Assembly (NCBI RefSeq): GCF_002101785.1
Contig: NZ_LQPJ01000089.1
Span: 1-33,950, forward strand
Origin: Mycobacterium palustre
Lineage (GTDB): Bacteria; Actinomycetota; Actinomycetes; Mycobacteriales; Mycobacteriaceae
DNA length: 33,950 bases
Direction: 5' to 3'
Below, one piece after another: positions 6,832 through 18,179 of this stretch. The translations under genes and the position numbers were made by a program. Positions within the stretch are counted from its first letter, which is position 1. Every line of letters begins with the position of its first letter. The notes under the pieces are model-generated. The model worked only from the letters and a program-made list of their open reading frames with translations, ran no database searches and was not told the DNA's origin.

Positions 6832-6862
6832 CGAAAGTCGAGTAGTGCATTACGCATGTGCT
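6832..6862 (+). promoter_or_regulatory. Palindromic upstream element, copy 1
   Basis: The core GTAGTGCATTAC-GCATG lies 147 bases upstream of the ATG at 7009, in the same orientation as that gene. It matches copy 3 (12022-12052, minus) at about 25 of 31 positions, including an upstream CGAAAnTCG block, and shares GTAGTnnAYTACGCRTG with copy 2. The core is an imperfect 12-bp palindrome. Repetition before three separate transcription units suggests an operator or activator site; the regulator is unknown. A perfect 8-bp hairpin (GGACGCGC/GCGCGTCC, 6920-6938) lies between this site and the gene. Confidence 0.55.
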
Positions 6863-7008
6863 GGGTGTGGGGCGTGCGCGACGATGACGGCACCGGTGAC
6901 GGTACCGGCGCTGAGAGCGGGACGCGCGCGGCGCGTCCGCAACCAGCGGAATGAAAGCCCCTGGGGCACAATACTGCTCGACCCAGCTCTGCGTTAGGAG
7001 GTAGAGCC

Positions 7009-7722
7009 ATGACATCGCACGCACCACGGATCAGCGCGGCGGGGGAGCGGAAGCGATCGCGCAGGCCGGATCCGGCCGGAGCCGGCAATCGCCAAGCCGA
7101 CGACGACGGCTCGTCGATGTCGGTCGCCAAGATGGGGTTGATCGGCACGCTCGGCGCCGCGGCTGTCGGCGCGGTCACCTCCATCGTCATCGCGGTCATG
7201 CACGACGGTTCTGTCCCCAACGCTTCGGCAGGGGGCACCCCCGCACCGACGACCATCACCTCACCGAAGCCGATCCGGCCGTCCCCGCGCGGCTCGTTCG
7301 ACCAAGTGGCGATCAACGATTCGGGCACCGCGGTGACCGTCGCGGGCTCAGCCGCGAAGGACATCGACAGCGTGGTGGTCCTGGTGGGGCCGCGTCAGTC
7401 GGGTGGCCAGTATTGGGCCAACAGCACCAACGTGGTCAACGGGCGGTGGCAGCTGGTCGTCGCGACGGATCCCCACGTTCCGGTGCCCTACCAGATAAAG
7501 GCCTTTTACCGGGAGCGCGAGGCGGGGGCTTCCTACAGGCCGAACCAAGACGGCGCGGTGATCCGGGACGTCTCGCGCTTCAGCATGCCGCAATCCGGCC
7601 CGACGCCGACGCCGACACCGGCGCCTCCCGAGCCGTTGTTGAGCTGCGCGGAACAACACGGGGACAGCTGCTTCGATGGCCCCGGCTGGGGACCGCCGTC
7701 GGTCTACCAATCCGATCACTGA
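7009..7722 (+). CDS. Membrane-anchored protein of unknown function
   Basis: The protein has 237 aa. A charged N-terminal segment of about 40 residues is followed by one hydrophobic helix (about 42-64, MGLIGTLGAAAVGAVTSIVIAV), and the rest is predicted to lie outside the membrane. The outer part begins with a Ser/Pro/Thr-rich stretch, continues with a compact region (VAINDSGTAVTVAGSAAK and onward), then a Thr-Pro linker (TPTPTPAPP), and ends with a tail holding two cysteines that could form a disulfide. No enzyme motif is recognised. The start is well supported by AGGAGG at 6997-7002. It converges on the patatin-like gene with a 20-base gap. Its promoter region carries copy 1 of the shared palindrome, linking it to the two small minus-strand units at 11-12 kb. 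Confidence 0.75.
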   Translation: MTSHAPRISAAGERKRSRRPDPAGAGNRQADDDGSSMSVAKMGLIGTLGAAAVGAVTSIVIAVMHDGSVPNASAGGTPAPTTITSPKPIRPSPRGSFDQVAINDSGTAVTVAGSAAKDIDSVVVLVGPRQSGGQYWANSTNVVNGRWQLVVATDPHVPVPYQIKAFYREREAGASYRPNQDGAVIRDVSRFSMPQSGPTPTPTPAPPEPLLSCAEQHGDSCFDGPGWGPPSVYQSDH

Positions 7723-7742
7723 CCGGGTGGACCGAATGAGGG

Positions 7743-10700
7743 TCAGCGCCCGGTGTGGGGCTGGCCCTCATCGGCATCCTGGTGCCGCCGCGCATCGACT
7801 GACGTCCCGTTCGCCAAGCATTCGACGGCCTCTCTGGCGATCACCCGGCCCAGCTCGGTGTAGGCGGCGAACTGCCCCTCGTTGAACCACTGATCCGACG
7901 TAGGATCGTGCGGGAAGATTTCGTTGGCCGCCGCATAAGTCAGGAGCCAATACGGACAGGCCTGCGACACTACGGCTTTCACGAAGATCAGCCGCCCCGT
8001 CCTCTGCCGCAGACCCGCCGCGGCCGGATACGTGATGGTGCCCTCGACGACCGCACCTCGGGTGATGCGGTCGTTGAGGCCCGCCAGCGCGTTGTCCTCG
8101 GAAAAGCGTGTTCCGGAGCCCGGCGCGATGGCCTCGACGGAGTACGCGCCGGTCTGGTTCAGCGTGACGTCCACGCCCAGTTCATATTTGGCCAGCCGGA
8201 GCGCGTCGGTGAGACCAAGGGGCAGCGGGGGCGGATCGCCGCCGCCGTCGATGACGAAGATCAGTTGGCACCGCCGCCGCAGCGCCTCCACCAGGCCCGA
8301 GTTGTCGTAGTGGCCGCCGTCGGTGACCTGCACCAGGCGCGCGTTCTTGTTGTTGATCCCCAGGATCTCTCGATACAGGTACCCCGCGCCCCGCACGCTC
8401 GGCAGGGACGCAGGCCATACCCGGGGCAGGTCGTCGGCGCCCGCCGGGTCGGCGCCGGAGCTGCGCCGCTCTTCGAATTCCTCGAGTTGACGGACGAAGT
8501 TCGGGTTGGGTAGCCACGTGCCCAGGCGGGCACCCGAAATCGCGAGCAGCTTCTCGATGCCCTTGTCTTGGCGTCCCATTGCCGAAGCGAACGCCGCGCC
8601 GCTCACGGCGACCGCGGCCTGCACCGTCAGATCCCGGCGGATGCGGGCCGGCGACGCCGCGAACAGTTCCCTGGTGCGAAACCAGCCGAGCTCCGGTCCG
8701 CCGATGTAGTCCGCGCTCATCACGTACGACACGGCGTTGAGGCCGGGGGCGGGCTTGTCGGGGCCGGTGATGGTGGCCGAACACGCGAATACGAATTGCG
8801 GCCCGCGGCCCGTCCGGCCGTAGAGGTGCAGCCAGGTCGGTTCGCTGGCGGGGTACGGCTCCGCTGCGTTCGGCTGCCCCGTGTCGGGCGTTCGCCGCAC
8901 CGCGAAGGTGCGGGCCAGGCGGCGCCGATAAAACGGGTGCAGGCTAAGGGACGTGACGTCGGCGAAGCCCAAGAACAGCGTGGTGAACGCCAAACCGCCT
9001 AGCCACCACCAGTGCCAGGACAGCAGCACCGCGCGGTGTGGGCCCCACCCGTCTTTGGTGTCGTAGTCGAAGACACCGGCCGCGAAGCTGCCAAGCAAAG
9101 CGAGCCATACCAACAGCAGCACCGCCAGGGTGGCCAGGGTCAGCAGCAGCGCGATAACTTCCGGTGGCAGAACGCGTTTCAGAAACGACACGGACCGGTT
9201 TGCGCCGACCCGTTCGGCCAGCTTGTCTTTGTCGCGCCAGACCATCGCGGTCAGCGCGGCCAGGTAGTTAAGTCCCACGACGCCCGACACCGCGGCGAAG
9301 GCGCTTCCGGGACCCGACGGCGTGTGGTCACCCGCCCACCGGCAGAGCCGCATCAACCCCGGAATCGCGATCGTGACCGCGAAGACCACTAACGCGAACC
9401 CGGCGCTGGCGCGGGCCCATCCCGAGATTTGGGCCCGCCAGTCTTCGCTCATCGGGCCGGCCCATTTCCACTCGATGGCCAGCGCAATCAGGGTCAACAG
9501 CACGGCCCACACCGCGAAAAACCCCACCGCCCAATACGCGGCCGGCTGGGCGAACAGGGAGAGGAAATAGTCCTGGTGCTGCTTCGTCTCGGCGGCGGGT
9601 TGCCCCGGCGGCACGGGAGGAAACGCGGCGATCGGGATGCGGGCCAGTAGCCACCCTATCGCCGCACCCGCGAGAACCGGGACGCTGAAGATAGTCGCCA
9701 GCGATGCGACCAAGTTCTTGAGCACTTGCCCGAGGGCACGGACCAGTCCGAGCGGCGAGTCCGCGATGTAGCTCGATCCGCGGCGAACGTGGTCAAACTC
9801 CTCCGAACCCTCCTCGAACCGCTCAGACAGGGCCGCTACGTTGTCCAGAATCTGGTCTGGCGGTAAGGGTTTCGGCTTTCCGTCGCGGTCGAGCCGCCGT
9901 CCTTGCACCCCGAGGAGCCGCGCCCCCGCGGCATAGCCACCGCCGGACACCGAGATGACGTAGTCGAAGCCCTCCAGCAGCGTCCCGCCCGCGCCGCGCC
10001 GCCACGTCGCGCCGGCGTCGCAGGCGCGCAGCGGCGACGAAAACACCTGCATGGCCCCCATCGCCACGCACGCCGAGCGCACACCGCCCCCGGAAAGACA
10101 AAGCGCCCGAAGCGGTTCGGTTCGACCCTTCAGTGCCGCGGTGACTCCGGGCACGTTGTAGGCGTTGAGCCAGCTCTGTTGGTCTTCCATCAGTTTCGCA
10201 ACCGACCCGCCGGATTCCTTGACCGCCTCGTCGGTGGGTTTGGGATCCGGTAACTCCTTGCGCGCCAGCACCCCCTCCCACCACGGGCGACGCCACACCC
10301 GGCCGATCGCGGCCGTTGCGCCACGGACAACGATCCAAGCGGAGCCGATCAACCCGACCGCGGCGACGGCTAGCGTGCACATCTTGACGATCGCCGCGGC
10401 CGCGGTTGCGGTGCGTAACCGGTCGGTATCCCACGCCGGCCTCAGGGTCGACCACAACAAGACGTCCTGGGCCACACTGGCCAACACGGCGACGACGACC
10501 GCGGCGCCGATGAAACGGGCCATCAGGCAATCCAATTCAGAGTTCGCGCGGGCCCGGCAGATCAGCGCGCATCCCGCGAGGACCGCTCCATACCCCGCGA
10601 TCAACCAAAGGTCGCTGTGCAGCGCCGCGGGCAATCTCGATGGGATGTCGGCGACCCCGGGTCCGCGATCCCCGAACGTGTAACGGGTCAGTCCCGGCGT

Positions 10701-10826
10701 GAACGCACCGGGCGGGCCGAGGAAAGCCAGGACCGCACCGGTGGCGATCATCCCCGACGCGATCGCGGGAATCCATCGCGACAGACGTCTGTACAAACTC
10801 GCCTCCGAGGCTCGACGGTCACTCAC
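7743..10826 (-). CDS. Patatin-like phospholipase domain protein with many membrane helices
   Basis: This 1027-aa protein has about four N-terminal transmembrane segments (roughly 18-170), then the start of a patatin domain, then further hydrophobic segments (about 365-630), then the rest of the patatin fold. The oxyanion-type loop LCLSGGGVRS is at about 243-252. The nucleophile elbow is VISVSGGG at about 290-297, with Ser294 likely catalytic; the usual first Gly of GxSxG is Ser. The Asp partner is probably in VTDGGHYDNSGL near the C-terminus, followed by VIDGGGD. The family hydrolyses acyl esters, often phospholipids; its substrate here is unknown. The membrane segments inserted between the two halves of the hydrolase are unusual. 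GTG 10826 has GGAG eight bases upstream, while the TTG six bases earlier has poor spacing. No neighbour shares its operon. Confidence 0.8.
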   Translation of the reverse strand: MSDRRASEASLYRRLSRWIPAIASGMIATGAVLAFLGPPGAFTPGLTRYTFGDRGPGVADIPSRLPAALHSDLWLIAGYGAVLAGCALICRARANSELDCLMARFIGAAVVVAVLASVAQDVLLWSTLRPAWDTDRLRTATAAAAIVKMCTLAVAAVGLIGSAWIVVRGATAAIGRVWRRPWWEGVLARKELPDPKPTDEAVKESGGSVAKLMEDQQSWLNAYNVPGVTAALKGRTEPLRALCLSGGGVRSACVAMGAMQVFSSPLRACDAGATWRRGAGGTLLEGFDYVISVSGGGYAAGARLLGVQGRRLDRDGKPKPLPPDQILDNVAALSERFEEGSEEFDHVRRGSSYIADSPLGLVRALGQVLKNLVASLATIFSVPVLAGAAIGWLLARIPIAAFPPVPPGQPAAETKQHQDYFLSLFAQPAAYWAVGFFAVWAVLLTLIALAIEWKWAGPMSEDWRAQISGWARASAGFALVVFAVTIAIPGLMRLCRWAGDHTPSGPGSAFAAVSGVVGLNYLAALTAMVWRDKDKLAERVGANRSVSFLKRVLPPEVIALLLTLATLAVLLLVWLALLGSFAAGVFDYDTKDGWGPHRAVLLSWHWWWLGGLAFTTLFLGFADVTSLSLHPFYRRRLARTFAVRRTPDTGQPNAAEPYPASEPTWLHLYGRTGRGPQFVFACSATITGPDKPAPGLNAVSYVMSADYIGGPELGWFRTRELFAASPARIRRDLTVQAAVAVSGAAFASAMGRQDKGIEKLLAISGARLGTWLPNPNFVRQLEEFEERRSSGADPAGADDLPRVWPASLPSVRGAGYLYREILGINNKNARLVQVTDGGHYDNSGLVEALRRRCQLIFVIDGGGDPPPLPLGLTDALRLAKYELGVDVTLNQTGAYSVEAIAPGSGTRFSEDNALAGLNDRITRGAVVEGTITYPAAAGLRQRTGRLIFVKAVVSQACPYWLLTYAAANEIFPHDPTSDQWFNEGQFAAYTELGRVIAREAVECLANGTSVDARRHQDADEGQPHTGR

Positions 10827-10932
10827 CGGCAAACTCCGCTCTGGAAACAGCGTGACACGTTTTGCTGGATCAGACCCCGTTACGGAGGTTGTGTCGTGCG
10901 ACCGGCTGGGGGCGGGCCGGCGGATGCGCGGG

Positions 10933-11049
10933 TCAGTCCTCGCGGTGGCGTTGGTAGTCCCAGCGCTCCAACCACGTGGTCAGGCTGTGGATTCCGATGC
11001 TGAGAAGGATCAGGACCACGCCTTCGATGAGCATGATCAATTCGTTCAC
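10933..11049 (-). CDS. 38-aa single-helix membrane peptide, coupled to the upstream gene
   Basis: The peptide begins [12 protein letters not shown] and consists of one hydrophobic helix (about residues 3-22) followed by an amphipathic, charged tail ending [12 protein letters not shown]. The GTG start (11049-11047) overlaps the TGA stop of the upstream 107-aa gene as GTGA, and GGAAC sits just before it, so translation is probably coupled. It is too short for most gene callers. I have a recollection, not checked, that short mycobacterial membrane peptides with a TxxLERWD tail recur. Function is unknown; it may be an accessory subunit or regulator of a membrane protein. Confidence 0.6.
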
Positions 11050-11369
11050 AGTCGTTCCATTTCGCGCGCCATCGCCGCGCGTTCGATGTAGCTGGGGCGC
11101 AGGCGCGGGTAGTGGCGCGGGGGCTCGCGCCGCCCGGCGGACCACAGCGACACCCGTTGCCGGAGCAGGGCGATCCAGCCGCGGCGGGCCGCGGCGCCGT
11201 GCGCTGCGGAGCCGCCGGCGGTTGCAAACATCACCTGCTGCTCGGTGATGAGGACGGGCTCCGCAGATACCTCTCTCCCCACAGAGGGTGTCTGCGGGGA
11301 AGCGTGATCGACGGGTACGGGTTCAATGGCACCGCGGTCAGACGCCGCCGCCGTTGGGCCAGTTAACAT
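11046..11369 (-). CDS. Conserved small protein of unknown function (107 aa)
   Basis: The N-terminal 35 residues look disordered. A middle segment [18 protein letters not shown] looks conserved, then an Arg/Trp-rich stretch ([15 protein letters not shown]), and the C-terminus [16 protein letters not shown] is helical. There is no signal peptide or clear transmembrane helix. The ATG has a good GGGAGATGAA ribosome site. It is the first gene of a two-gene unit with the 38-aa membrane peptide, and copy 2 of the shared palindrome lies 51 bases upstream, with a TAACGT -10-like box between. Function is not known; the paired architecture suggests a soluble regulator with a membrane partner, which is only inference. 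Confidence 0.7.
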
Positions 11370-11420
11370 TTCATCTCCCTGAGGGTGGTGTCGGGCAAAA
11401 CGTTAGAAGGGCCGGTTCCC

Positions 11421-11442
11421 GGCGTCACGCGTAGTCGACTAC
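11421..11442 (-). promoter_or_regulatory. Palindromic upstream element, copy 2
   Basis: Read on the minus strand the site is GTAGTCGACTAC followed by GCGTGACGCC. The first 12 bases are a perfect palindrome. It points toward the 107-aa gene (start 11369). A TAACGT -10-like hexamer about 26 bases downstream of the palindrome would place the palindrome near -49 to -38, where an activator would bind. This copy lacks the CGAAAnTCG block that copies 1 and 3 share. Confidence 0.55.
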
Positions 11443-11482
11443 CTGTTGTGCGGCCGAGCACCCCGCATGGCCGAACCGGCGG

Positions 11483-11947
11483 TCAACAATGGGCCTGATT
11501 GATCCGCGCTCCCGCGGCGGACTCGAACCACACGGTCGGGAAGGTGAAGTCTTCGTCCCAGGTCGTCCATTCGTCCTGCCACGTCATCGGCGGACCGACC
11601 AGCTTGGGGCCGGTCCACAGCACGACGCCGTGCACGTCGAGCAAGGAGATTCCGCCGTGGAAGACCCACCGGTCCGCGTCGTCGCTGGACTTGACGTGTG
11701 CGAAAAAGTTGGCCGTCCCGTCGGCCCGGATCGTCAGCATCTCGTCCCGCAGGGCGCAGTCGCCGACTCGCGTGACGCCCGACCAGACCCACCACTTCCT
11801 CGCCACGTCGTAGGGGCTCGGGACCGGGCGCTCGCGCACGTCGCTGAGCAAATCCACCGGCGGCGCGCTCTTGCATGCGGGCTGTTTTTTGTCCAGCGTC
11901 GGCTCGGCGTAGGGCGCATCGCCGTCAAAGGTCGTCTCAGGGGTCAT
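11483..11947 (-). CDS. Conserved protein of unknown function (154 aa)
   Basis: The protein starts MTPETTFDGDAPY at ATG 11947, with AGGAG seven bases upstream. The same frame stays open much further upstream, but that part is antisense to the M42 peptidase and is not coding. It is rich in Trp (WWVWSGV, DRWVFHG, WTGPKLVG, WQDEWTTWDEDF) and has two cysteines. There is no signal peptide. The composition suggests a compact beta-rich domain; no family is identified with confidence. Copy 3 of the shared palindrome lies 74 bases upstream in the same orientation. The gap to the 107-aa gene (113 bases) carries copy 2, so the two are probably separately controlled members of one regulon. Confidence 0.72.
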   Translation of the reverse strand: MTPETTFDGDAPYAEPTLDKKQPACKSAPPVDLLSDVRERPVPSPYDVARKWWVWSGVTRVGDCALRDEMLTIRADGTANFFAHVKSSDDADRWVFHGGISLLDVHGVVLWTGPKLVGPPMTWQDEWTTWDEDFTFPTVWFESAAGARINQAHC

Positions 11948-12021
11948 CTTCGTGCTCCTAAGTCGTTCGTATCGGCGGCACCGGCGGCCGGCCACTGTCA
12001 CCTTCGCCGGTGGTGACCGCG

Positions 12022-12052
12022 GGCGCATGCGTAGTGGACTACGCGAATTTCG
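12022..12052 (-). promoter_or_regulatory. Palindromic upstream element, copy 3
   Basis: On the minus strand it reads CGAAATTCGC then GTAGTCCACTAC then GCATGCGCC. The 12-bp core is a palindrome with one central mismatch. It lies 74 bases upstream of the 154-aa gene and about 75 bases upstream of the divergent M42 peptidase (GTG 12126), so it could affect either. Similarity to copy 1 extends over about 31 bases, far beyond chance for two intergenic sites. Confidence 0.55.
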
Positions 12053-15419: not shown

Positions 15420-18179
15420 CTACTCATTGCCGCGCGGTTCCCGGGCCCGAAGCGCTTGGTAGAGCTTCGTGCGCGACCGAATGTTGAGCTTGCGGTAGAT
15501 GCGGCTGAGGTTGACCTCGACCGTTTTGGGGCTGACGAACAACGCGGCCGCGACGTCACGGTTGGTCATTCCCGAGGCCGCCAGTTCGGCGACGCGTTCC
15601 TCGGTCGCGGTCAGCGCCTCGGCGTGACCCCTGCCCAACCCGCCGCGGGCCAGTTCGGCCCTGGTCCGCTCCGCCCATAAGGCGGTGCCCAGTCGCAGGA
15701 ACGTTTGCTGTGCTTCTTGCAGGGCTGCGCCGGCGGCGTCGCGGCGGCGGTGGCGGCGCTGCAGTTGACCGAGCAAGAGCTGGGTTCGGGCCCGTTCGAA
15801 CGGCATCGGTAGGCGGTTGTGCTCGGCCATAGCCAACTCCGCGGTCGCCAGGGCCCCGGTCACATCGCCGCGCCCGGCCTGCAGCATGGCCCGACCGCGC
15901 ATGCCCACTGCCAACATCCACGCGCGGTCAAGCCGGCGACCATTGCGCTCGAGGGCGCCGATCAGCGGTTCGGCGGCGTCCCAGCGGCCAAGAGCGGTCA
16001 TCGCCTCGATGGCGTCGGGGAGATAGGGCGCGACGAAGATTTCGGTTCCCTCCGACGCGTCGTCGAAGGCCCGCAACAGCGGCTCGACCGTGCCTAGCGC
16101 CGCGCCGCAGTTACCCAGGGATACATCGAGAAAGCACAGCACGGTGGTCGGCCACACCGTCACCAAGCCGGGGGAGTCACACCGCTCAGCGACCACCAGG
16201 GCCTGCTCGGCGTCGCGCCGGGCGTCGCCCTCATGACCTGTGTAGGCCGCGACGGCGGCCCGCAGCATGAGCGCCACCGCGACGGGTAGGTCCCGACCCA
16301 GCTGCAGCGCCCGCTCCATCGCATCGCCGGCGATCGACGCGGCCTGGGCGAAGTCACCCCGCCAGATCTCGTTGAGACCACTGTGGAAGGCGAACATCAT
16401 CAGTTCGCTTTCCTCACCGCGCTCGATGTAGCGGTCCCTGAGGGCCTGCAATTCGGCCCGCGCCTGTTCGAGGCGGCCGGTGCCGGCCAGCAATATCGCG
16501 CCCTGCACCCGCGGGCGCAGCAGCGCCGAGACCTGGGCATCGGAATCCTCCAGATCGAGCGCGCGCCGCATCCCGGATTCGTCGACGCCGGCGCCCAGCA
16601 GGAAGCGCACCATGACGCGCATGCTCAGCGCCTGACTGAGCAGGCCGGATCGCCCGTGCGCCGCCGCGCTGGTGACGGCGTCGTTCACGCTTTTCGCGGC
16701 ACGATCGCGTTGGCCGACGTTGAGCAGCGCGAACGACAGCGGCACCAGAATTAAAGCGCGCAGCTCGAGGTCGTCCCCCACATCGCCGAGCGCGCGGTCG
16801 AGCAGGTCGACCGCCTCGCGCGAGCTGCCATCGAGCAAGCTCCAGAGGCCTAGCAGGCGCAATGCCGCCGCCCTCGACCTTCCGGGCGCGGATCGTTGCG
16901 CGGTTTGCTCGAGCACGGACCGGGCGTGGTCGGCGTCTCCCGCGCTGAAGTGGTAGGCCGCCGAAAGGATTCGGCGCTCCGGGCAGTCGCCACCGAGACC
17001 GATCGCCAGCTCCAAAAGCTCGGCGGCGGCTGCCGGTGCCCCCCGGCCTCGCGCGATCTCCGCCGCGGTATCGAGGGCTTCTATCGTCCGGGGCTCGCCG
17101 GTCGCGTCGGCCAGGGCCAGGTGGCGGGCGCGCAACTCGGGTTCGGCGACGAGTTCGGCTAGCCGCCGGTGCATGTCGCGGCGACGCCCGGGCGTGGCCC
17201 CGCTGTAGACGCCGTGCGCCAGAATCGGGTGGGTGAACCGCAGATGGCTGCCATCGATGGCCACCACCGCCTGGATCTCGGCCCGGGCGAGCGCGCGCAC
17301 CACCTCGTCCGGCGTCGCGCCCGTCGCTTGCGCGACCACCGGCACCGTGGGATCCGGCAGGCTGGCCATGGCCAGCAGCACGTCCTCGGCGCCGACCCGG
17401 CTGACCCGCGAATGGACCAGATCATTGAGGCTGCTCGGCAGCGCCAACGCGGAAGTGCGGCCTTCGACGCCGAGTTCGCGGCCCAATTCCAGGGCGAAAA
17501 AGGGGTTACCGCCGGAGATTTCGTGAATGCGCAGCAGCGCCGGCCGGGCAACCGGCCTGCCCAACCGCATCGACAGGACGTGATGCAATTCCCCAACGGT
17601 CAACGGCTGCAAACGGATTCGGTACAAACCGTCCGGGCTGGGCAGCTGCAACCGCGACGCCGCCTCGCTGATCCGCGTCGTGCACACCAGGGCCGCACCG
17701 GGCGGAAGCCGTCGCGCCGCGAACGACACCGCGTTCGCGCTCGAGGTATCGATCCATTGCAGGTCGTCGATCGCCATCACGACGGGACCGTCGCTGGCGA
17801 GCCGACCGATTACCGCCGCAAAGCCGGCCCCCACCGCCCTGGGGTCGATGTCGCGCGCGTCGACGCGCCGGCGCAACAGCGCGCCGTCCAAGGCCTGCTG
17901 CTGCGGCGCGGGAAGGTCCGCCCAAACGGAGTCGTCGATTTCGCCGAGCAGATCGGCCAACGCCGCATACGCCAGCACCGACTCGGCCGCCGCGGCGCGA
18001 GAGCTCAAGGTGCGGTACCCGCGGGCACGGGCCCGGTCGACCGCGTCCAGCCAAAGCGTCGTCTTACCGATGCCCGCCTCGCCTTCGATGACGAGCGCGG
18101 ACGACTGACGCGGCACAGAATTCAGAAATTCGGTGACGGCCTGTTCTTCAGTTCGCCGGCCGACGAACTGCTCCGCCAT
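15420..18179 (-). CDS. LuxR-family transcriptional regulator, LAL type with AAA ATPase domain
   Basis: This large 919-aa ATP-binding regulator belongs to the LuxR (MalT-like) group. Walker A GEAGIGKT is at 33-40, Walker B VVMAIDDLQWID at about 137-148, and a sensor-like RFTHPILAHGVYSG segment near 320. A long helical-repeat region (about 350-830, Ala/Leu/Arg-rich) follows, and a GerE/LuxR helix-turn-helix sits at about 855-919 (LTATEERVAELAASGMTNRD, then SPKTVEVNLSRIYRKL). Such proteins activate transcription on binding an inducer and ATP. Unlike several M. tuberculosis LALs it has no adenylate cyclase domain. The target genes are not evident. The three palindromes at 6.8-12 kb are possible but unproven targets. 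The 208-base upstream gap holds its promoter, but I recognise no clear -35/-10. Confidence 0.9.
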   Translation of the reverse strand: MAEQFVGRRTEEQAVTEFLNSVPRQSSALVIEGEAGIGKTTLWLDAVDRARARGYRTLSSRAAAAESVLAYAALADLLGEIDDSVWADLPAPQQQALDGALLRRRVDARDIDPRAVGAGFAAVIGRLASDGPVVMAIDDLQWIDTSSANAVSFAARRLPPGAALVCTTRISEAASRLQLPSPDGLYRIRLQPLTVGELHHVLSMRLGRPVARPALLRIHEISGGNPFFALELGRELGVEGRTSALALPSSLNDLVHSRVSRVGAEDVLLAMASLPDPTVPVVAQATGATPDEVVRALARAEIQAVVAIDGSHLRFTHPILAHGVYSGATPGRRRDMHRRLAELVAEPELRARHLALADATGEPRTIEALDTAAEIARGRGAPAAAAELLELAIGLGGDCPERRILSAAYHFSAGDADHARSVLEQTAQRSAPGRSRAAALRLLGLWSLLDGSSREAVDLLDRALGDVGDDLELRALILVPLSFALLNVGQRDRAAKSVNDAVTSAAAHGRSGLLSQALSMRVMVRFLLGAGVDESGMRRALDLEDSDAQVSALLRPRVQGAILLAGTGRLEQARAELQALRDRYIERGEESELMMFAFHSGLNEIWRGDFAQAASIAGDAMERALQLGRDLPVAVALMLRAAVAAYTGHEGDARRDAEQALVVAERCDSPGLVTVWPTTVLCFLDVSLGNCGAALGTVEPLLRAFDDASEGTEIFVAPYLPDAIEAMTALGRWDAAEPLIGALERNGRRLDRAWMLAVGMRGRAMLQAGRGDVTGALATAELAMAEHNRLPMPFERARTQLLLGQLQRRHRRRDAAGAALQEAQQTFLRLGTALWAERTRAELARGGLGRGHAEALTATEERVAELAASGMTNRDVAAALFVSPKTVEVNLSRIYRKLNIRSRTKLYQALRAREPRGNE

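Follow-up and report, generated by a model that had tools for sequence, protein, structure and literature searches.

The element in the window and in mycobacterial genomes

A stretch of 33,950 nucleotides from Mycobacterium palustre (RefSeq assembly GCF_002101785.1, contig NZ_LQPJ01000089.1, positions 1 to 33,950; termed here the window) contains three copies of a palindromic element, each preceding a separate gene or gene pair, and raises the question of what this element does and which protein reads it. The initial annotation proposed a small regulon under a shared DNA-binding regulator. We found an asymmetric element of 24 to 26 bp, spaced near-rigidly to a −10-like box across mycobacteria. 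Judging from sequence, it is probably a promoter site for a dimeric activator that overlaps the −35 region, and the activator is probably a STAND/LuxR protein of the LAL type, of ∼870 amino acids (aa), which would also act on its own operon; we favor this account with some reserve.

All three copies matched the 17-mer GTAGTNNAYTACGCRTG without mismatch at the positions first reported. Each was intergenic and pointed at the gene previously assigned to it, encoding a 237-aa protein (copy 1), a 107-aa/38-aa pair (copy 2) or a 154-aa protein (copy 3). The parts of each copy, with scores from a position-specific scoring matrix (PSSM), were as follows.

6834..6858, + strand: copy 1; exact 17-mer 6842-6858; PSSM total 39.0; left block AAAGTCGA 6834-6841, palindrome GTAGTGCATTAC 6842-6853, right flank GCATG 6854-6858
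6880..6885, + strand: −10-like box of copy 1, GACGAT, weak (score 1.9); predicted start ∼6892
11426..11450, − strand: copy 2; exact 17-mer 11426-11442; PSSM 47.0; left block 11443-11450, palindrome GTAGTCGACTAC 11442-11431, right flank GCGTG
11399..11404, − strand: −10-like box of copy 2, AACGTT, PSSM −10 part 10.5; predicted start ∼11392
12026..12050, − strand: copy 3; exact 17-mer 12026-12042; PSSM 43.5; left block 12043-12050, palindrome GTAGTCCACTAC 12042-12031, right flank GCATG
11999..12004, − strand: −10-like box of copy 3, AAGGTG, PSSM −10 part 4.0; predicted start ∼11992

Copies 1 and 3 were identical at 25 of 31 bases (hand count), as originally described. The window held no further copy, as allowing up to three mismatches added only copies 2 and 3 read in reverse (shuffled controls gave a mean of 1.12 matches). 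Within the whole genome (6,037,522 bases) the exact 17-mer matched three times, every time inside the window. Looser searches of this genome showed no enrichment: up to two mismatches to GTAGTNNAYTACGCRTG gave 10 matches versus 28 for the reversed pattern, and the bare 12-bp palindrome with up to one mismatch gave 104 versus 184 for the control.

Of 297 genomes of the genus, 111 contained the exact 17-mer, at no fewer than 149 places among the matches listed (leaving out one overlapping reading), compared with 28 control matches (hand count). A scan of the family, performed with the ACTAC form of the pattern only, detected a match in 36 of 301 genomes, these belonging to 10 of 31 genera (counting the genus of M. 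palustre). Outside the genus, the exact 17-mer was modestly above control (34 matches versus 15, hand count), and part of these matches are therefore due to chance; the full layout of the element was observed at two loci there (L221 and L222). The idea of shared regulation thus stood, while that of a small, local regulon had to be given up since the regulon is genus-wide.

A set of 138 sites was assembled from 30 places and 100 fetched regions plus the window. Using a crude codon-usage gene caller, 137 of these sites were intergenic, in contrast to the random or mostly coding positions named at the outset as a refuting outcome. The first gene was co-oriented with the site in 122 of the 138 cases, at a median distance of 55 bp from the predicted transcription start.

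Loss of the element upstream of orthologues had been named as a second refuting outcome; instead, the element was kept in three gene families. Orthologues of the 107-aa protein, whose conserved peptides in an alignment include MAREMxRL, were found independently of the motif by a protein search of named genomes, yielding 71 loci with titles of Mycobacterium, Mycolicibacterium or Mycobacteriaceae only. The element (PSSM above 15) was upstream in 56 of these 71 loci, with an intact palindrome in 42, and 15 were without it; these scores are not fully independent because some loci overlap the sites used for training the PSSM. In control stretches of the same loci, 5 of 142 scored above 10 (maximum, 22.1), some of them probably reverse readings of the palindrome. 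The 154-aa gene, encoding a DUF6294 protein, was present in 5 of 297 genomes and had the element just upstream in all 5. A gene for a 190-aa SARP-like protein was present in 37 of 297 genomes (E ≤ 1e-10), M. palustre not being among them; 30 of the 39 listed matches were fetched, and all 30 had the element no more than ∼90 bp from the match, with scores of 8.6 to 45.5. In six other genomes, one homologue each of the 237-aa protein (28 to 41% identity) was encoded downstream of an exact site, at loci selected by the motif.

Three copies within 5.2 kb of one genome might suggest that the element is a repeat, mobile or duplicated, or a product of chance. The presence of the element before orthologues in many species speaks against such an origin, as do the 48 sites described below, whose flanks are unlike outside the element and whose downstream genes are non-homologous. 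Given this set and the occurrence in 111 of 297 genomes, a repeat or chance origin is very unlikely and carries next to no weight.

Layout of the element and its promoter

In an alignment of 137 exact sites (omitting those with too little flank and duplicates of identical context), conservation outside the selected 17-mer was seen in an upstream block and a −10-like box. The upstream block, counted −7 to −1 from the first G, read AAnWCRR, with frequencies of 0.77 for A at −6, 0.94 for A/T at −4, 0.74 for C at −3 and 1.00 for a purine at −2. The box, WAnnTK, occupied positions 38 to 43 from the first base of the palindrome, 21 bp past the 17-mer, with frequencies of 0.85 for A/T at 38 and, for T, of 0.78 at 42 and 0.67 at 43. 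In 121 of 134 sites, the −10 part of the score was above the 95th percentile obtained at wrong offsets. RTG stood at the −35 position, followed by C/T/A and C/G, and no TTGAC was present. The core was the 12-bp palindrome, whose right flank took the variants GCRTG, TGATG and TCACG (30 SARP-like loci). In the window, the −10 box of copy 2 was good, its score falling at about the 95th percentile for all sites, that of copy 3 was moderate and that of copy 1 was poor.

Because many sites are orthologous, the set was reduced to 48 sites by keeping a single site for each downstream gene family, with flanks of less than 60% identity (one flank-similar site was dropped). The signals persisted: columns −6, −4 and −2 carried 1.05, 1.32 and 1.00 bits and columns 38, 42 and 43 carried 0.86, 1.21 and 0.68 bits, as against no more than 0.255 bits in 93 background columns. 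TANNNT occurred at offsets 37, 38 and 39 in 6, 9 and 1 of these sites, respectively, and once each at two other offsets.

A palindrome that overlaps or abuts the −35 region at a set distance from the −10 box (the start being predicted), together with a weak or absent consensus −35, is the arrangement of a class-II activator site. With a start at position 50, the palindrome centre is predicted at ∼−44.5 and its right end would overlap the −35 region. From this layout we infer protein binding at the element. A shared DNA-binding regulator, as first proposed, is the best reading because sites at which an activator overlaps the −35 region are laid out in this way; the intergenic positions, the retention before orthologues and the spacing to the −10 box in 48 non-homologous sites are all in its favor. 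Under this reading, a LuxR-type dimer would bind the palindrome, contact RNA polymerase where the −35 is weak and raise transcription; the −10 box would be read by the housekeeping sigma factor, and the weak −35 (RTG) would make the promoter dependent on the activator.

The near-rigid spacing to the −10-like box and the absence of a TTGAC-like −35 could also be explained by an alternative sigma factor, with the 17-mer as an unusually long −35 element. This is highly improbable: the core is a 12-bp palindrome with a varying right flank, inspection by eye of the 60 largest clusters of neighbouring genes revealed no sigma gene, and the −10 box retains a likeness to TANNNT, the housekeeping −10 form. 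As promoter palindromes are often operators and this one overlaps the −35 region, a repressor operator was also considered. A repressor would have no need of a set distance to the −10 box, yet this distance was kept across the 48 sites with non-homologous genes, and promoters without a good −35 are those expected of activator dependence; we consider an operator highly improbable.

The candidate regulator

Two kinds of LAL protein (an AAA/STAND ATPase plus a LuxR-type helix-turn-helix [HTH]) were encoded near the sites: class A, of ∼844 to 882 aa with SVRTVEGH in the HTH, and class B, with SPKTVE. Members of the two classes scored no more than 21 bits against each other. SVRTVEGH was present in all 13 class-A HTHs compared, a set that includes two duplicates and was mostly first picked by the HTH signature. 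The LAL protein of L212 matched GerE, AAA_16 and AAA_22 above the Pfam cut-offs, in agreement with a STAND ATPase carrying an HTH.

Twenty orthologues of one LAL group were chosen from 150 listed matches for high similarity and contig room, and the 6.5 kb upstream of each was searched. A site in the right direction (PSSM ≥ 12) was detected in 17 of 20, or in 16 of 19 fresh cases without G077, whose site was known beforehand. In 20 control regions (390 kb; 780,000 strand positions) there were no sites scoring 5 or more. Nine of the 20 genomes did not contain the exact 17-mer, and all nine had a site upstream of the LAL gene. The upstream regions often contained a second, divergent site before a 38-aa gene, a 107-aa-like gene or a subtilase gene. 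An own-operon site was thereby found for most of the examined members of one orthologue group; other LAL groups were also seen beside sites.

Gene order linked these proteins to the window. In G116, G227 and G131, the order was element, DUF6294 gene, haem peroxidase gene (PF03098, named by Pfam in G116 only), class-A LAL gene, element, 107-aa and/or 38-aa gene and a gene homologous to the patatin-like one of the window; the window and G240 had the same cluster minus the peroxidase and LAL genes. Listed LAL genes and exact sites within 7 kb of each other formed 9 pairs versus 0.28 expected, which are not nine independent cases because several came from one orthologue group. Among 13 regions of 20 kb, four (L215, L216, L217 and L223) were chosen because a LAL gene had been seen beforehand; the other nine, a non-random set of two-site loci and loci bearing genes of the window, contained a class-A LAL in five (L212, L213, L220, L221 and L222). 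A class-A LAL piece was present in 7 of 130 3-kb loci (L011 to L140). The M. palustre genome encodes an intact class-A LAL of 872 aa (C85). LAL genes of this type in L215 to L217 end 11 to 36 bp before an element, and in M. palustre a degenerate palindrome (PSSM 2.6) lies between the C85 LAL gene and a divergent flavoprotein-like gene. In the favored account, the LuxR-type HTH of a class-A LAL would read the palindrome, with GTAGTNNACTAC as the predicted bound form, and the LAL would autoactivate its own operon. A third class-A match of this genome, at G000:C7:37111-39171, is broken, with a stop codon inside.

The 919-aa LAL encoded in the window (15420-18179, − strand) was set aside as the regulator; it belongs to class B and scored at most 21 bits against class-A members. 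Beyond the domain plan, it is nearly unrelated to class A.

Several observations weigh against the class-A LAL account. No class-A LAL was detected within 9.75 kb in 20 site regions taken in list order, the same as in 20 controls (profile made without the duplicates L226 and L227), and LAL adjacency, considered as a general rule, was therefore dropped. A right-direction site was lacking in 3 of the 20 upstream regions (L374, L381 and L382), and LAL loci with 1.5-kb flanks (L343 to L368) had a site in only 2 of 26; in longer regions the element lay farther up the operon. A class-A LAL was present in 281 of 297 genomes (three candidates scored per genome), compared with 111 for the exact 17-mer. 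The best M. palustre LAL was only 35% identical to the search query, so this genome seems to lack the LAL group of the 20-region test. The LAL gene could be a target instead of the regulator. As to the promoter, copy 1 has a poor −10 box, and the full WANNTK was present at offsets 37 to 39 in only 15 of 48 sites; a purine at position 50 had a frequency of 0.73 in the 137 sites but 0.21 bits, within background, in the 48-site set. The start is consequently a guess and the box is loose. Finally, PSSM training sites overlap some of the loci tested.

The absence of LAL adjacency in all 20 unselected regions would also fit a class-II site served by a different activator, either the short SARP-like protein or some other factor, with the LAL genes among its targets. 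All 30 fetched loci of the SARP-like gene had the element (three of these genes being in the PSSM training set), and the exact site was present in 32 of 37 SARP-bearing genomes versus 79 of 260 others (hand count). Single other regulators adjoin some sites, for example, a LysR-like gene in L211 (by eye) and a MarR gene in L220. The SARP-like protein was absent, at E ≤ 1e-10, from the M. palustre genome and from 260 of 297 genomes, and cannot, therefore, serve all sites; as M. palustre lacks it, it was rejected as sole regulator. Known SARPs read direct repeats, not a palindrome, which also counts against it. Among the 60 largest neighbour clusters, SARP-like and LAL proteins were the sole regulators recognised by eye. 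A different activator is possible, in our judgment, but doubtful.

There are precedents for a LuxR-type reader of such a site. Operators of PAS-LuxR (PimM-type) regulators in Streptomyces, CTVGGGAWWTCCCBAG, resemble this element in being palindromes with a two-base WW centre, reported in the −35 region of regulated promoters and read by LuxR-type regulators (PMC9774167). They differ in half-site and in the sensor domain of the regulator, and are reported as mostly pathway specific (PMC9774167), whereas the present element is 24 to 26 bp, asymmetric and precedes unrelated genes genus-wide. Mycobacterial IniR is reported to be a direct activator, with a signal-transduction ATPase, a MalT-like middle region and a LuxR-like DNA-binding domain, similar to the ATPase, middle region and C-terminal LuxR-type HTH of class-A LALs; it differs in that it is reported to induce only iniBAC (PMC5760070), and no iniB-like gene was recognised behind the element. 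The IniR model NF038181 was absent among the best 25 of 28 NCBIfam families for the class-A LAL, so this protein was not classed as IniR; the class-B LAL of the window matched that model over the HTH only (33.5 bits; cut-off, 750). The best NCBIfam family for the class-A LAL was NF050132, AbsR2 (LuxR family), with 228.4 bits (E 1.8e-67), far below the cut-off of 850 bits, and the protein is not a member; no relevant paper was found under the AbsR2 name among the open-access papers listed. The HTH of the NarL/FixJ protein DevR/DosR is related in sequence to that of class-A LALs (matches to PDB 1zlj and 3c3w), DevR/DosR differing as a response regulator rather than a STAND protein. Its box is a palindromic site near −35 whose consensus differs from this element. 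The mycobacterial BlaI operator, which has GTAG/CTAC-like arms, was considered because of the palindrome arms and set aside, as a repressor does not explain the near-fixed −10 spacing. BlaI is described as a negative regulator (PMC12565901, whose searched passages give no motif string). No description of the element or regulon was found in the open-access literature, as judged from listings, and the 21 papers among 5.39 million that contained one of six exact site strings were all considered irrelevant from their titles and the beginnings of their abstracts; this search left subscription papers mostly uncovered.

Genes behind the element

The genes of the window that bear on the element are as follows.

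7009..7722, + strand: 237-aa membrane-anchored protein, first gene behind copy 1; no match in Pfam or NCBIfam
7743..10832, − strand: 1029-aa membrane protein with patatin-like motifs, after the 107/38-aa pair
10933..11049, − strand: 38-aa single-span membrane protein, commonest gene family near the element
11046..11369, − strand: 107-aa protein of the MAREMxRL-peptide family (alignment), behind copy 2
11483..11947, − strand: 154-aa DUF6294 protein (PF19811, E 2.8e-15), first gene behind copy 3
15420-18179, − strand: 919-aa class-B LAL (LuxR/STAND, HTH SPKTVE)

The downstream genes had initially all been described as of unknown function. This does not hold for the 154-aa protein, which has its DUF6294 assignment, and in the copy-2 unit the 107/38-aa pair is followed by the 1029-aa gene with patatin-like motifs (Pfam patatin E 0.38 only). 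Gene order around the 1029-aa gene was similar in L211, L212 and L213, and this gene is probably the last of the copy-2 operon.

Families behind exact sites in the genus included the 107-aa family (31), P450-like proteins (12), S58 peptidases (9), Tle1-like phospholipases (4), DUF6294 (4) and SARP-like proteins (3), with many singletons; each name rests on one tested member, and the P450-like fragment fell just below the Pfam cut-off. The 38-aa gene recurred as a 38- to 42-aa single-span membrane protein with an LERWDYxRHxED-like end in 58 of 186 loci (30 of the 186 having been fetched for the SARP-like gene), mostly after the 107-aa or SARP-like gene. The short SARP-like regulator (L106 and L181 to L210; no Pfam match above cut-off) precedes the 38-aa gene in most fetched loci, standing where the 107-aa gene would otherwise be.

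Two further places in the M. palustre genome fitted the element. C52:52769 (+) scored 26.3 and directly precedes a P450-like gene of the family seen elsewhere; C43:72437 (+) scored 10.8 and precedes a gene for a DUF4185-like protein, of the same kind as that encoded behind the exact site of L118; a divergent site of lower score (8.0) lies there before a papain-type protease-like gene (name read by eye). Outside the window, M. palustre therefore probably carries no fewer than two additional sites.

Lipases, haem peroxidase, P450-like enzymes and proteases abound in the regulated set, which also contains the 38-aa membrane protein, and the system is likely a transcription-factor regulon unusual in content. 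Judging from the lipases, haem peroxidase and P450-like enzymes, our guess is that the switching signal is lipid derived or envelope related. Many of the loci L375 to L388 have divergent modules with an element on each side: genes for the 38-aa protein (some with a 107-aa-like gene), a subtilase and a lipase-like protein on one side, and for a haem-peroxidase-like protein, a catalase-like protein and a class-A LAL on the other. This arrangement looks like a predicted oxylipin-type module (domains were tested in L375, L212 and L222 only). A stress or antagonism response is conceivable, and we put it forward tentatively: a self-amplifying STAND/LuxR switch would drive membrane lipases (patatin-like, Tle1-like and class-3), P450-like enzymes, proteases and a haem-peroxidase/catalase-like oxylipin-type pair; the widespread 38-aa membrane protein would stand at the centre of the response, and the cluster of the window would have lost the switch gene but kept its sites, now controlled by a paralogue.

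With the element, dozens of mycobacterial genes, many of which have no known function or signal, acquire a cis-code that can be tested, and the 107-aa family and the recurrent 38-aa membrane protein are joined in a single circuit. The element also points to a STAND/LuxR family of large proteins whose targets were not found described in the literature searched; if the favored account is true, this gene-control circuit is likewise one without a description found there. LysM-like proteins (by eye) were encoded near or behind the element in L105, L158, L163 and L180.

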